Notes under the pieces: model-generated
Told to the model about the DNA's origin: nothing
Database searches by the model: none
What the model saw: the letters and a program-made list of their open reading frames with translations, nothing else
Source: a virus
IMG/VR virus record: IMGVR_UViG_3300047553_000733
Span: 1-64,000 of that record
Reading direction: 5' to 3' (one strand)
Length of the DNA stretch: 64,000 bases
Position numbers and translations under genes: made by a program
Shown here: in pieces, positions 1,856 to 15,513 of the stretch
Position numbering within the stretch: the stretch's first letter is position 1
Layout of the letters: each line of letters starts with the position of its first letter

Positions 1856-2164
1856 ATGACCGCCGAAGTCAACAAGGTTAACTACACACCTGAGCAAACG
1901 CTTGAAGTAGTTAGCAAGTACCAATCGGGTATGCCCGTGGAAATGATTGCTCGCGAAATGGGCAAAACCACTCGCAGTATCGTTGCCAAGCTCTCGCGCG
2001 AGGGCGTTTACCAAGCCAAAACCAAAGCCGCTCAACCTCGTGTTAAGAAGGCAGATCTGGTCGACAAGCTAGCACAAGCTTGCGGTGTCCCGGCTGAACA
2101 GTTTGAGTCGCTTGAAAAAGCTAACTTGGACGTACTGGAAGCACTTGCTACCAAGCTGGCGTAA
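1856..2164 (+). CDS. HTH-like small protein, YTPEQT family (copy 2)
   Basis: 102 residues, ribosome site AGAAAGGAAATAAACT before the ATG. It aligns through its length with the protein at 912: VNYTPEQTL near the N-terminus, IAREMGKTTRSIVAKLSRE as the HTH-like part, and ESLEKANLDVLEAL at the C-terminus. Basic residues lie between the two conserved parts. Probably a DNA-binding regulator or nucleoid-type protein; no target is visible from the protein alone. Confidence 0.7.
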   Translation: MTAEVNKVNYTPEQTLEVVSKYQSGMPVEMIAREMGKTTRSIVAKLSREGVYQAKTKAAQPRVKKADLVDKLAQACGVPAEQFESLEKANLDVLEALATKLA

Positions 2165-2196
2165 GCTAGCGCGGTTTAGGGTCAAAAAATTCTGAC

Positions 2197-2225
2197 TTGA
2201 ATTGAGACCCTAAATCCTATATAAT
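2197..2225 (+). promoter_or_regulatory. Promoter of a noncoding transcript
   Basis: TTGAAT and TATAAT, 17-bp spacer. The spacer contains a GACCCTAAA copy. No coding frame with a ribosome site follows. Confidence 0.7.
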
Positions 2226-2231
2226 AGATAT

Positions 2232-2410
2232 ATCGCAGTCGGGAAAGATAAACAAAATTAACCAGACCCATTACACCGCAAATCAGTCACTGTTAGTCGA
2301 CACACCTGTAATGCTCATGGTCTCTTTAATCCCAGTAGTCTGTTTGTTATAGCCACTACTTCAACCTAATAAAATCTTAGTAGTCCAGTGCTATTAACAA
2401 CGATTGCGAA
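2232..2410 (+). ncRNA. Structured noncoding RNA, about 180 nt
   Basis: The region after the promoter at 2197-2225 has no plausible gene but shows paired segments: ATTACA with TGTAAT (around 2271 and 2308), and ACTACT with AGTAGT enclosed by TAGC/GCTA (about 2347-2397). The 3' end is not clear; a T run near 2412 could end it, or it could run into the next RNA. Function unknown. Confidence 0.45.
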
Positions 2411-2419
2411 ATTTTTTAC

Positions 2420-2449
2420 TTGAACTATAAAGCTGTTTTGTTATATAAT
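2420..2449 (+). promoter_or_regulatory. Promoter of the large structured RNA
   Basis: TTGAAC and TATAAT, 18-bp spacer. The predicted start is near 2456. Confidence 0.75.
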
Positions 2450-2630
2450 ATATTTATAGTTTGATGAAGGGTGTAAGCGGTCACCGAGCAAATCACGGTG
2501 ATACTACTTAATTGTTGGGAAGCTAATCGCCGAGCAACAGCCCGTTACAGTTTATGGGTGTTATGAGCCTGGCGTATTTGTCCAGATAACAACTTGATTG
2601 GTGGCGAAGCCTCTACCACCAGCCCCCTAA

Positions 2631-2732
2631 ACCCTCTGATGAGTGCCCTGCAATGGGCCGAAACTCTAAGCATCGTGTCTAGTTGCTGACAGACTTCAAA
2701 ACTGCCACCTAGATGCACCTTAGGGTCAGGGT
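2631..2732 (+). ncRNA. Candidate hammerhead self-cleaving ribozyme
   Basis: The core is present: CUGAUGA at 2636-2642, GAAA at 2660-2663 and cleavage triplet GUC at 2725-2727. Stem I pairs ACCCU (2631-2635) with AGGGU (2728-2732). Stem II pairs GCCC with GGGC (2645-2648, 2655-2658) plus G2643-C2659, leaving U2644 bulged. Stem III pairs ACUCUAAG (2663-2670) with CUUAGGGU (2719-2726), one G-U, and has a long folded extension. Cleavage is predicted after C2727. The bulge and the use of a recurrent GACCCTAA word in the stems are the main doubts. Confidence 0.65.
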
Positions 2733-3120
2733 ATGAACCCAGCACATTGGCCTGTGGCCGCTGGTAATAGTAATACCCAACCGCTTTAACACGGTCGGCG
2801 GGATACAAGTGGATTGTACTCCGGAGAAAGAACTCCTTAAAATACAGCCATCTTCTAACACAAGAGCCTCGGCAGAGGTAATGCAAGTCTGGAGTCTTGC
2901 TGGCGCTAGGTATGGTGTGAACATACCACAACGACCCTAAACTGCGGAGGGTGCGTATAATATATCCAGTCAGAGACAACTGCACTAAACCGCTAGCAAA
3001 TGCGACAACCTATGTTACCGCACGGATATCGCAAGCACTGGAACTGTAGCGACTGAAACGTGCGCGGCTCGCGAGCCACAAAAACACGCTGTTTAGCTAA
3101 ATCACTGTGACGTGTTCAAA

Positions 3121-3159
3121 AGCCCCTACTACCGGCAGGTAGTAGGGGCTTTTGTTTTG
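3121..3159 (+). terminator. Strong terminator of the large RNA
   Basis: A 13-bp perfect stem (AGCCCCTACTACC and complement) with a GGCA loop, then TTTTGTTTT. Confidence 0.9.
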
Positions 3160-3202
3160 GTTTTTACAATTTAGGGTCCAAAATTTTAGCGCTGCTGCGC
3201 CA

Positions 3203-3231
3203 ATTATACAGTGCTAAACCTTGTTTGTCAA
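3203..3231 (-). promoter_or_regulatory. Leftward sigma-70-type promoter, fourth copy
   Basis: TTGACA and TATAAT on the minus strand, 17-bp spacer, in a sequence related to 1547-1576. The RNA would start near 3197 and meet GCGC-AGCA-GCGC followed by TAAAATTTT, again giving a very short product converging on the large RNA. Confidence 0.6.
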
Positions 3232-3270
3232 GTGGATTTTCTTGAAACTGACCCTAAACCGCAAAAAATA

Positions 3271-3299
3271 AAGCCTACTTAGCAAAACTAAGTAGGCTT
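3271..3299 (-). terminator. Terminator of the leftward operon 4465-3318
   Basis: Stem AAGCCTACTTAG with its complement and a 5-nt loop. On the minus strand it is followed by TTTATTTTTT. It may also act rightward. Confidence 0.85.
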
Positions 3300-3317
3300 T
3301 TGGCGTTATTGGGTGAG

Positions 3318-3641
3318 TTAAGTGCAATTGCCTTGGTTTAGGGTCAGTTTTCGTTCCAACAAAACCAGCACCCCTTTGTTTACCTTCTCCAAGCTCTCCA
3401 GTTGGTCGCTGGGGACGTCCAGAAGCTCAGCAAGGCGTTCGATATGCTCCGATTTTTTCACTGGCAGCTCACCACGCTTGTTGAGGTACTGTTTTTTCTG
3501 GTACACGCCCAGACTGCTCAGCTTAGCAATTATGCTACGTTCAGGTACTTCCAGCTCAACTGCAAGCTGCGTTACTGGTATACCGCCTTTATAGTCCTTG
3601 ATCAATTTATCTGTTACTTCTTTTGTGTATTTCATAGCCAT
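3318..3641 (-). CDS. HTH-like small protein, YTPEQT family (copy 3)
   Basis: 107 residues, a diverged paralog of the proteins at 912 and 1856: an HTH-like block (LAVELEVPERSIIAKLSSLG, about residues 26-45), then a linker with PVKKSEH, then ESLEKVNKGVLVLLERK. It overlaps the upstream gene by about 10 bases, so the two are probably co-translated. ATG 3641 or the ATG two codons later could be used. DNA binding is inferred. Confidence 0.7.
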   Translation of the reverse strand: MAMKYTKEVTDKLIKDYKGGIPVTQLAVELEVPERSIIAKLSSLGVYQKKQYLNKRGELPVKKSEHIERLAELLDVPSDQLESLEKVNKGVLVLLERKLTLNQGNCT

Positions 3642-4465
3642 GGCATTGCAAATGTATCTTGTTTAGGTTGTGTTTGTTCAGGTACTGTAAAAATCTCACT
3701 AGTAACTAGTGGTTCGGGCATCAAATCCCAGTTAATGGGATCTAAGATCATGTATTTAGTGCGCTTGCTGGGGTGTGCTATCCAGATTTGAGTAAGCATC
3801 GACTGTGTTAACTTGGGGAGTGTGCCTAGCTTGGTATGCTGAATGCCTGTTAGTGCCCAAGTACTTTCGGCAGGCTTCAATTCACCTGCCTTCTTGCCCG
3901 ATTTATTCATCAAGCCTTCACTTCTGATTGCCAGCAACTCCTCTGACCCTAAATCGCCAACAACTTGCAGTTGCTCCGCACTCAAGTTCACTGCCTCCAA
4001 GAGTTTAGGTTCTAGTAAGTACTCCAAGTGTTTTAGACCCTGCCAGCTCCCATAAGGTACGTCTTTGTAGAGCTTAAACCCCATTAGTATAAGTGGGGTA
4101 AACTGTGCGTACTGGGGGTGTTGTGTTTGGCTGGGCAGTAGTAATGACCTGGTAACCCTGCTGAGCTTCCACAACCCCTGCAGTTTAGGGTCCTGGCCAA
4201 CGTTGTGCTTGAGCGTGGCTAAAATATCCCAACGATCGCCAGAGTCTTTGACCAGCTTCCAGGTGCCAAAGTGTGCAACCAGCTGTGGCAGCAACCATTG
4301 GTGAAGTGGGGCAATATGCTCCTGTTTGATCCATTGCTCCAGCTCTACTTGACTCATGCTATTTATTGTGCTTAGTGGCAGTTCAAATATGTCTTGCTTT
4401 TTTAATATCATTTTTAAATTTAGTGGTTTGATTTTAGACGCAATTATCCTACTTATTAGTTGCAC
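3632..4465 (-). CDS. Unknown 260-277 residue protein
   Basis: A continuous frame; GTG 4465 (weak AAAGG upstream) or ATG 4411 (MILKKQDIF) could be the start. No signal peptide or membrane helix. The protein is rich in Trp, Leu and Lys with a helical look (SMSQVELEQWIKQ) and a Pro-rich end. I recognise no domain. It lies between its own promoter (4613-4642) and an HTH-like gene, so a regulatory role is possible but not shown. Confidence 0.6.
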   Translation of the reverse strand: MQLISRIIASKIKPLNLKMILKKQDIFELPLSTINSMSQVELEQWIKQEHIAPLHQWLLPQLVAHFGTWKLVKDSGDRWDILATLKHNVGQDPKLQGLWKLSRVTRSLLLPSQTQHPQYAQFTPLILMGFKLYKDVPYGSWQGLKHLEYLLEPKLLEAVNLSAEQLQVVGDLGSEELLAIRSEGLMNKSGKKAGELKPAESTWALTGIQHTKLGTLPKLTQSMLTQIWIAHPSKRTKYMILDPINWDLMPEPLVTSEIFTVPEQTQPKQDTFAMPWL

Positions 4466-4612
4466 TTAGCCTTTGGTCTTTGACCCTAAACTTACAAAAA
4501 TTGCTGTAATTAAGGGGCCCTCGTGTATCGTCCCTTATTACTAGCATTTTGTGTTGTTTAGGTCAACAACCACGGCTGTGCAACTTGTATCTGTCTCTGT
4601 AATTTATACAAT
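4466..4612 (-). other. Untranslated leader of the unknown gene
   Basis: About 140 bases between the leftward start and the first start codon. It contains a GACCCTAAAC copy (4482-4491) and an imperfect pairing of AAGGG and CCCTT segments (about 4513-4535). I see no known riboswitch. Confidence 0.35.
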
Positions 4613-4642
4613 ATTATAGCACACTAGGCAAATACTCTGCAA
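4613..4642 (-). promoter_or_regulatory. Leftward promoter
   Basis: Minus-strand TTGCAG and TATAAT, 18-bp spacer. Confidence 0.6.
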
Positions 4643-4693
4643 GCTAATTTTTTATGTGGAGGTTGTTACTGATTTTATTGGTTAGTGGGTACG

Positions 4694-4718
4694 AAAAAAG
4701 CCGCTTGTGCGGCTTTTT
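4694..4718 (-). terminator. Terminator of the 6.7-4.7 kb operon
   Basis: AAAAAGCCGC-TTGT-GCGGCTTTTT, symmetrical and usable in both directions, overlapping the stop codon of the last leftward gene. Confidence 0.85.
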
Positions 4719-5361
4719 AATCCCAGAGTGCCTGGTAGTACTTGCCAAACAGTTTAAATCCTTGTTGCTTTCTGTGTTCCCAGTGGTTGTGAGCCTCACT
4801 ATCATGCTTGATCTGGTAGATTTGCTGGTTTAGCTCTGCTTTAGGGTCAACCTCACTGTGGTCATAGAACTGGTCTTGACTGTCCGCGTTTTGGTGCTGT
4901 TCAAAAGCCCAGATCATTTCGTCGATAACATACTCCCAGCGTTGGTGCCAGAACTCGTCTGTATCCCACTCATTCTCCTTAGGCTTTGCGTGTGTACTCC
5001 ACAGGTGTTGTGGACAGTCAAAGTCGTCTACCTTAGGGCTGCCGTGCTTGGTAGCTTTCAGTTGACGGAGCATTGGCAGGATAATGATGCTCAGGGTATG
5101 ATCCATTGACCAGGTGTCGTACTTGTCAATACGCACATACTCTTGGCGCTTACGCTTCTTATCCAACCAGTTTAGGAACTTGGTAAGCTTGCTATCACTG
5201 CCGTCCTTGTTCTCTGCTAGCCAAGTGCCGAAGTTGTGCACCCAGTCTTTGTGTCTGGGAAAGCCCACTTCGTCCTTGACTTTTGGACTCCAAAAACACA
5301 GTAGTTCAGCAATTTGATAAGGCCCCCACCAAGTTTTGTAGGGTCCAATGATAACTTTCAT
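4717..5361 (-). CDS. Conserved phage protein, unknown function
   Basis: 214 residues starting MKVIIGPYKTWWGPYQIAEL, a signature I recognise from many tailed-phage hypothetical proteins. It is rich in Trp, His and charged residues with no membrane segment. A run of helices with KKRKRQEY near residue 90 and a conserved FGKYYQALWD end are visible. Function unknown. It overlaps the upstream proline-rich gene by 4 bases and ends in a terminator. Confidence 0.75.
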   Translation of the reverse strand: MKVIIGPYKTWWGPYQIAELLCFWSPKVKDEVGFPRHKDWVHNFGTWLAENKDGSDSKLTKFLNWLDKKRKRQEYVRIDKYDTWSMDHTLSIIILPMLRQLKATKHGSPKVDDFDCPQHLWSTHAKPKENEWDTDEFWHQRWEYVIDEMIWAFEQHQNADSQDQFYDHSEVDPKAELNQQIYQIKHDSEAHNHWEHRKQQGFKLFGKYYQALWD

Positions 5362-12904: not shown

Positions 12905-12980
12905 GTCCCGTTCATCTAGTGGCCAAGGATAGTGCCCTTTCACGGCATTCACGCGAGTTCGAATCTCGCACGGGACGCCA
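12905..12980 (+). tRNA. tRNA-Glu (anticodon TTC)
   Basis: Acceptor GUCCCG with CGGGAC, anticodon loop CUUUCAC, T loop UUCGAAU, encoded CCA. Confidence 0.95.
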
Positions 12981-15412: not shown

Positions 15413-15513
15413 GGCCCCGTAGCTTAATTGGTTAAAGAACCGAGCTTATACCTCGGCATAGCGCTGTCTAGATAAGGCAGAGTGTGGGGGTTCGAGTCCC
15501 TCCGGGGCTACCA
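15413..15513 (+). tRNA. tRNA-Ile (anticodon TAT) with a long variable arm
   Basis: 101 nt. Acceptor GGCCCCG/CGGGGCU, anticodon stem CCGAG/CUCGG with loop CUUAUAC (anticodon UAU, for AUA), T loop UUCGAGU and encoded CCA. About 29 nt lie between the anticodon and T arms, folding as a class-II-like variable arm (CUGUC/GGCAG), which is unusual for tRNA-Ile. Confidence 0.8.

Follow-up and report, generated by a model that had tools for sequence, protein, structure and literature searches.

The first 64 kb of the 102,184-bp virus record IMGVR_UViG_3300047553_000733 (hereafter the window) carry a conserved unit of about 700 nucleotides (nt) whose helices covary in related phages and which includes a type-I hammerhead consensus. 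This unit is almost certainly a real structured noncoding RNA (the large RNA, below), and it probably represents a class of large modular RNAs of T5-like phages that has not been filed in Rfam, in which the transcript would be cut by the hammerhead and the mature pieces would persist as stable structural RNAs similar to the RNAX of phage T5. The virus itself encodes about 20 tRNA genes and a DNA polymerase that shares 49% identity with its counterparts in T5-like Demerecviridae such as Vibrio phage Thalassa and VPT02, and the large RNA is located between two genes for D5-like DNA-binding proteins, one upstream on the + strand (Table 1) and the other at 3318-3641 on the - strand.

A conserved promoter-to-terminator unit without a coding frame

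The initial annotation of this region had claimed a strong promoter, a strong terminator and no plausible gene, and all three were confirmed: a sigma-70-type promoter and a 17-bp terminator hairpin with its T-run frame the unit (Table 1), and the + strand contains no open reading frame (ORF) of 60 amino acids or more between 2165 and 3321. No coding frame is kept across related phages either; the minus-strand ORF 2545-2985 was considered and rejected, its tblastn matches in relatives being short, patchy and following the conserved RNA blocks. Of 33 relatives, 26 have an equivalent promoter upstream of the first structural module (module A), versus 1.5% of random stretches. The promoter type suggests early or constant expression of the large RNA, and we take this promoter to be similar to the early promoters of T5.

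The first relative, L003, was found through the neighbour gene at 1856 and has intergenic blocks with 76-80% DNA identity to those of the window. A nine-sequence profile of the D5-like family led to 79 loci, the majority of which have a homologue of the large RNA shortly downstream of the D5-like gene and on the same strand. The hammerhead, module A or both were counted by hand in about 65 non-duplicate IMG/VR contigs, mostly T5-like (~100 kb), once subsequent searches by pattern and by model are included. Near-complete ~100-kb records with the hammerhead have one copy apiece, with a single exception that has two; this exception, G004 (L063 and L164), has module A and the hammerhead at both record ends, which would place them ~1 kb apart if the ends join.

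Models were built of the hammerhead domain (R1) and of module A (R2). Neither model had a significant match in the parts of T5, Erwinia phage KEY and Vibrio phage Thalassa that were scanned, and blastn of the window, L086, L062 and L161 against 50,697 phage isolate records returned tRNA-Glu matches only. A 14-mer of module A occurs in at least 118 stretches of GTDB genomes; as none of the 80 stretches fetched matches R2, we regard these as chance matches.

Table 1. Features in and around the large RNA (window coordinates)
Feature	Position	Strand	Details
D5-like DNA-binding protein gene, customary upstream neighbour of the large RNA	1856..2164	+	PHROG 1725 and 323
Promoter of the second, upstream conserved RNA	2197..2225	+
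Adjacent separate conserved RNA, putatively structured, about 180 nt	2234..2417	+	Closing helix CGCAGUCG 2234-2241 / CGAUUGCG 2401-2408, then U6
Sigma-70-type promoter of the large RNA	2420..2449	+	TTGAAC, 18 nt, TATAAT
Large noncoding RNA, about 700 nt	2456..3154	+	5' end inferred from promoter
Module A, three-way junction GGGU-[helix]-CUUAAU-[helix]-GCCC	2469..2543	+	Alignment A6, pair counts; R2 match 70.1 bits (window copy is among the sequences behind R2)
Module B, second copy of the module A plan	2556..2625	+	Strong covariation; matched by module A model R2, E = 0.003
Type-I hammerhead ribozyme domain	2631..2732	+	Stem I 2631-2635/2728-2732, stem II 2643-2648/2655-2659, stem III 2663-2670/2719-2726
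Hammerhead core CUGAUGA	2636..2642	+	CUGANGA invariant in 34 sequences except free position 7
Hammerhead core GAA + A15.1	2660..2663	+	Invariant in 34 sequences
Predicted cleavage site GUC/A, C17 = 2727	2727..2728	+	Computed position
3' domain: GGAG-AAAGAA-CUCC hairpin, conserved AAAUACAGCYAUC.UCUAA, two more hairpins	2823..2905	+	Alignment A8, counts
Conserved GACCCUAA motif, several repeats in some relatives	2933..2955	+
Conserved helix with internal loop	3019..3064	+	CACGGAUAUC ... CUGAAACGUG
Intrinsic terminator, 17-bp hairpin plus T-run	3117..3154	+

Covariation, not folding energy, demonstrates the structure

Compensatory changes, the comparative evidence proposed in the initial annotation, are abundant in related phages and numerous in four separate domains of the large RNA. 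In module A, the second helix changes from GAC/GUC to GUA/UAC in the window and to GUC/GAC in L003, and the third from UGUGG/CCACA to UGUUG/CAACA. The covariation score of the hammerhead domain is 0.339, versus 0.158 for shuffled alignments, with 126 cells altered on both sides; that of module B is 0.663 (0.201 shuffled), with 90% of cells paired and double changes in 13 of 14 pairs; and the two tested helices of the 3' domain, which flank its near-invariant motif in Table 1, reach 0.618 (0.205 shuffled), with 97% of cells paired and 40 double-changed. In these last three domains the signal is lost when the partners are slid by 1-3 columns.

The energy of single-sequence folding gave no such proof. 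The large RNA has a z-score of -2.7 with its terminator and only -0.6 once the terminator is removed, the 5' half (2469-2735) has -0.1, and the antisense strand scores better than the sense strand (-4.75). Of the "ten perfect stems" described initially, the existence of structure is thus upheld by covariation in relatives, whereas an excess of stems over chance on energy alone is not; the structure is held to be real because its helices covary and not because of its folding energy.

The modules are optional. L071, L073, L088 and L093 begin directly at module B, and L095, L097 and L105 are short forms of the large RNA. In L161, L111 and L173, modules A and B have an extra conserved module (UUAGUGUUAUCA.GGUAU ... 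CGAUAGCACUAA) between them or next to them.

The hammerhead domain

In the window the three stems of the hammerhead read ACCCU/AGGGU (stem I), G(U)GCCC/GGGCC (stem II) and ACUCUAAG/CUUAGGGU (stem III). Across the 34 aligned hammerhead sequences, CUGANGA, GAAA and U16.1 are without variation, and the base at position 17 is C in all but one, which has A (no sequence has G), giving a NUH triplet of GUC in 33 and GUA in one. Paired cells make up 86%, 96% and 89% of stems I, II and III, respectively, with both-side changes in each, stem I being open. RNAalifold, run without a prior, recovered stems II and III and displaced stem I by two columns; the hammerhead register of stem I nevertheless fits better, because its variants (ACCCU/AGGGU, UCCCU/AGGGA, UCCU/AGGA, UCCA/UGGA, and ACCUU/AAGGU in L004) include A-U pairs that form there and break in the shifted register.

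Model R1 gave strong matches at loci outside its training set (L124, 85.7 bits; L114, 71.6 bits) and also recovered L106, L076, L082, L004 and others, none of which was used in building it. Across 1 Mb it produced no match outside the expected place or strand. Some coding DNA was wrongly flagged by a simple hammerhead descriptor, and every such match had very long loops.

R1 also matches ordinary clustered type-I hammerheads in other phages; for one type of these, L298, the match coincides with the position of a sub-threshold Rfam Hammerhead_3 hit (E 0.005). Five such contigs (L297, L306, L308, L313 and L327) hold at least two type-I hammerheads about 0.4-1.2 kb apart, which Rfam gathering scores miss, and in a 110-kb phage record (L318, 2634-3007) a tRNA with a long insertion precedes a hammerhead by about 170 nt.

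Several observations weigh against a hammerhead-cut RNA. The Rfam hammerhead models give the window sequence no score at all, and the scores of two relatives (L057, 16.2 bits; L161, 18.3 bits) are below gathering. Stem I has only 3-5 bp in many members and stem II of the window has a bulged U, so that cleavage may be slow; the local hammerhead fold of the window lies 3.1 kcal/mol above the minimum-energy fold; and no hammerhead match is obtained in L110, L113, L118 and L128 despite their module A, from which we conclude that the ribozyme is not universal in the family. The Rfam scores carry less weight than they seem to, since textbook-like hammerheads of other phage contigs also fail the gathering score and calibration worked only below threshold: the test is insensitive and does not define a hammerhead.

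The short stem I, the bulged stem II of the window and the members without a hammerhead would suit a fold that is simply a rigid three-way junction, in which no cleavage occurs and the RNA acts as one ~700-nt molecule. We judge this unlikely, as G8, G12 and C17 are fixed without obvious structural need and the NUH rule is obeyed at position 17 in all 34 sequences. The family very probably contains a cleaving hammerhead.

Association with tRNA-Glu

ARAGORN finds tRNA-Glu(UUC), and no other type of tRNA, in or beside the large RNA at 12 non-redundant loci. The CCA end directly adjoins stem I in L065, L070 and L075 (ACCA/ACCCU-CUGAYGA, the slash marking the junction) and is a few bases from it in L003, L076, L114 and L124, while in L128 the tRNA is upstream of module A. 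The large RNA of the window has no tRNA; the window's own tRNA-Glu is at 12905. At 15413-15513 of the window, ARAGORN also lists a tRNA-like gene (tRNA-???) whose anticodon loop is odd.

The constant identity of this tRNA and the abutting or nearly abutting CCA ends are what would be expected if the unit were mainly a device for the maturation or delivery of tRNA-Glu, the RNA and its hammerhead processing the embedded tRNA as has been proposed for theta ribozymes. We find this improbable, to a slightly greater degree than a non-cleaving junction, given that most members, the window included, have no tRNA there and that the cut is predicted about 95 nt past the CCA end and not at it. Theta ribozymes are HDV-like (hepatitis delta virus-like) and have their cleavage site no more than 5 nt from the 3' end of the tRNA (PMC10879173). 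Both they and the present class associate a self-cleaving motif (predicted here) with phage tRNAs; the present class has instead a hammerhead core, and its distant site means that the arrangement is not that of a theta ribozyme.

Proposed processing and role

For the large RNA we infer transcription, cleavage, abundance, timing and role as follows. The segment 2456-3154 of the window would be strongly transcribed from its own promoter up to the intrinsic terminator, and the transcript would fold into two tandem three-way junctions, the type-I hammerhead and the structured 3' domain. The hammerhead would most likely cut the primary transcript once, co-transcriptionally, after C2727, leaving a 5' half of ~272 nt with a 2',3'-cyclic phosphate, which in some relatives would hold the tRNA-Glu, and a 3' half of ~427 nt with a 5' hydroxyl. 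Early in infection the mature halves would most likely serve as structural RNAs of high stability, corresponding to RNAX in T5. This functional role is assigned by analogy, which counts against the reading as a whole, and we put it forward tentatively, at somewhat less than even chances. More speculative still, and rather doubtful, is the idea that T5-like phages as a whole depend on a very large early RNA that differs between lineages (in enterobacterial phages RNAX, in environmental ones the present class), which here would mature itself by the hammerhead and assemble with or protect tRNA-Glu for takeover or counter-defence. On this idea it would form a self-processing phage assembly of a new kind, either a ribonucleoprotein or one of RNA only.

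Two further explanations are very improbable. The unit could be a DNA-level element (an injection stop signal, an origin or an array of regulator-binding sites) that merely resembles an RNA; T5 does have an injection-stop region of ~1 kb and copies of GACCCTAA are dense around the large RNA, but the promoter-terminator frame, the strand-specific hammerhead consensus and the compensatory changes speak for an RNA. Equally, the hammerhead could release or circularise an RNA in a viroid-like manner, for which the two copies of G004, separated by about 1 kb if the record is closed end to end, might be cited; this requires two cuts or a ligation, and nearly all members have a single hammerhead per transcript.

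Few RNAs are large and ornate, and for most of these the function is unknown. The present class offers a clear point of attack for biochemistry, namely a hammerhead with a predicted cut position within a phage RNA of ~700 nt whose junctions are repeated in tandem and whose tRNA is optional. Attention is also directed to RNAX, a stable RNA annotated without a function in the model phage T5 and conserved in hundreds of cultured relatives, so that E. coli offers a system in which to study what such RNAs do.

Comparison with known RNAs

The initial annotation had proposed a class such as GOLLD or ROOL, or a new one. In Rfam 15, no family reaches its gathering score in the window or the tested relatives, and GOLLD and ROOL give no match even when E is allowed to rise to 10; a new class is what fits. 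GOLLD is a large ornate phage RNA found near tRNAs, which its linker sometimes holds, and ROOL is a large ornate RNA of phages and prophages found near tRNA islands (PMC12286853). The class described here shares their style, being large, ornate, phage-borne and tRNA-associated; with no covariance-model match to either, membership is the least probable of all the explanations considered. For GOLLD, moreover, a hammerhead is not described in PMC12286853, whereas the present class has the hammerhead consensus.

The hammerhead inside the RNA, the tRNA-Glu of many relatives and the existence of a similar-sized RNA in T5 are features beyond those of the initial annotation. In the T5 annotation, RNAX (AY543070 40848-41566, our L294) is a 719-nt "stable RNA with unknown functions" placed behind promoter P16-17 and adjoining a tRNA-Arg. 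Of the RNAs described so far it comes nearest to the present class, which it resembles in being a noncoding RNA of ~700 nt in a T5-like phage, with its own strong promoter and a tRNA association; this association consists of an embedded tRNA-like element (the only Rfam match within RNAX) and the adjacent tRNA-Arg, compared with tRNA-Glu in relatives, though not in the window copy, of the present class. The two differ in that R1 finds no hammerhead in RNAX and that no homology was detected between RNAX and the family by nhmmer --max (E up to 1), nor any similarity by R1 or R2. RNAX also has DNA matches in 521 cultured-phage records, where the tested members of the present class match by tRNA-Glu alone. 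We therefore regard RNAX as the counterpart of this class in its position, size and link to tRNA, and not as a demonstrated relative.

Compared with the type-I hammerheads of bacteria and phages (Perreault 2011, PMC3088659; RF00163, RF00008, RAGATH-1-hammerhead), the domain described here has the same core, three-stem plan and NUH site; it differs in lying inside a large modular RNA, in its elaborated stem III of ~60 nt and in scoring below the Rfam gathering thresholds. Searches of the open-access literature brought up no account of a hammerhead within a large RNA of T5-like phages.

Neighbouring features

Immediately upstream lies another conserved RNA, which has a promoter to itself (Table 1) and whose U-run overlaps with the -35 region of the large-RNA promoter. 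Its counterparts in relatives are shorter (~130-145 nt, versus ~180 nt in the window) and have a GGGC-UUAAU...GCCC element in common with module A. On the other side, a search with the neighbour protein encoded at 3635-4465 yielded no relatives.

The sequence GACCCTAA/TTAGGGTC is present in 22 copies in the 64 kb, versus about 2 expected, half of them within 2.1-4.9 kb. The copies lie mainly at 2176-4841, occur also within genes and promoters, and are identical to one strand of stem III of the hammerhead; they are possibly a DNA signal.
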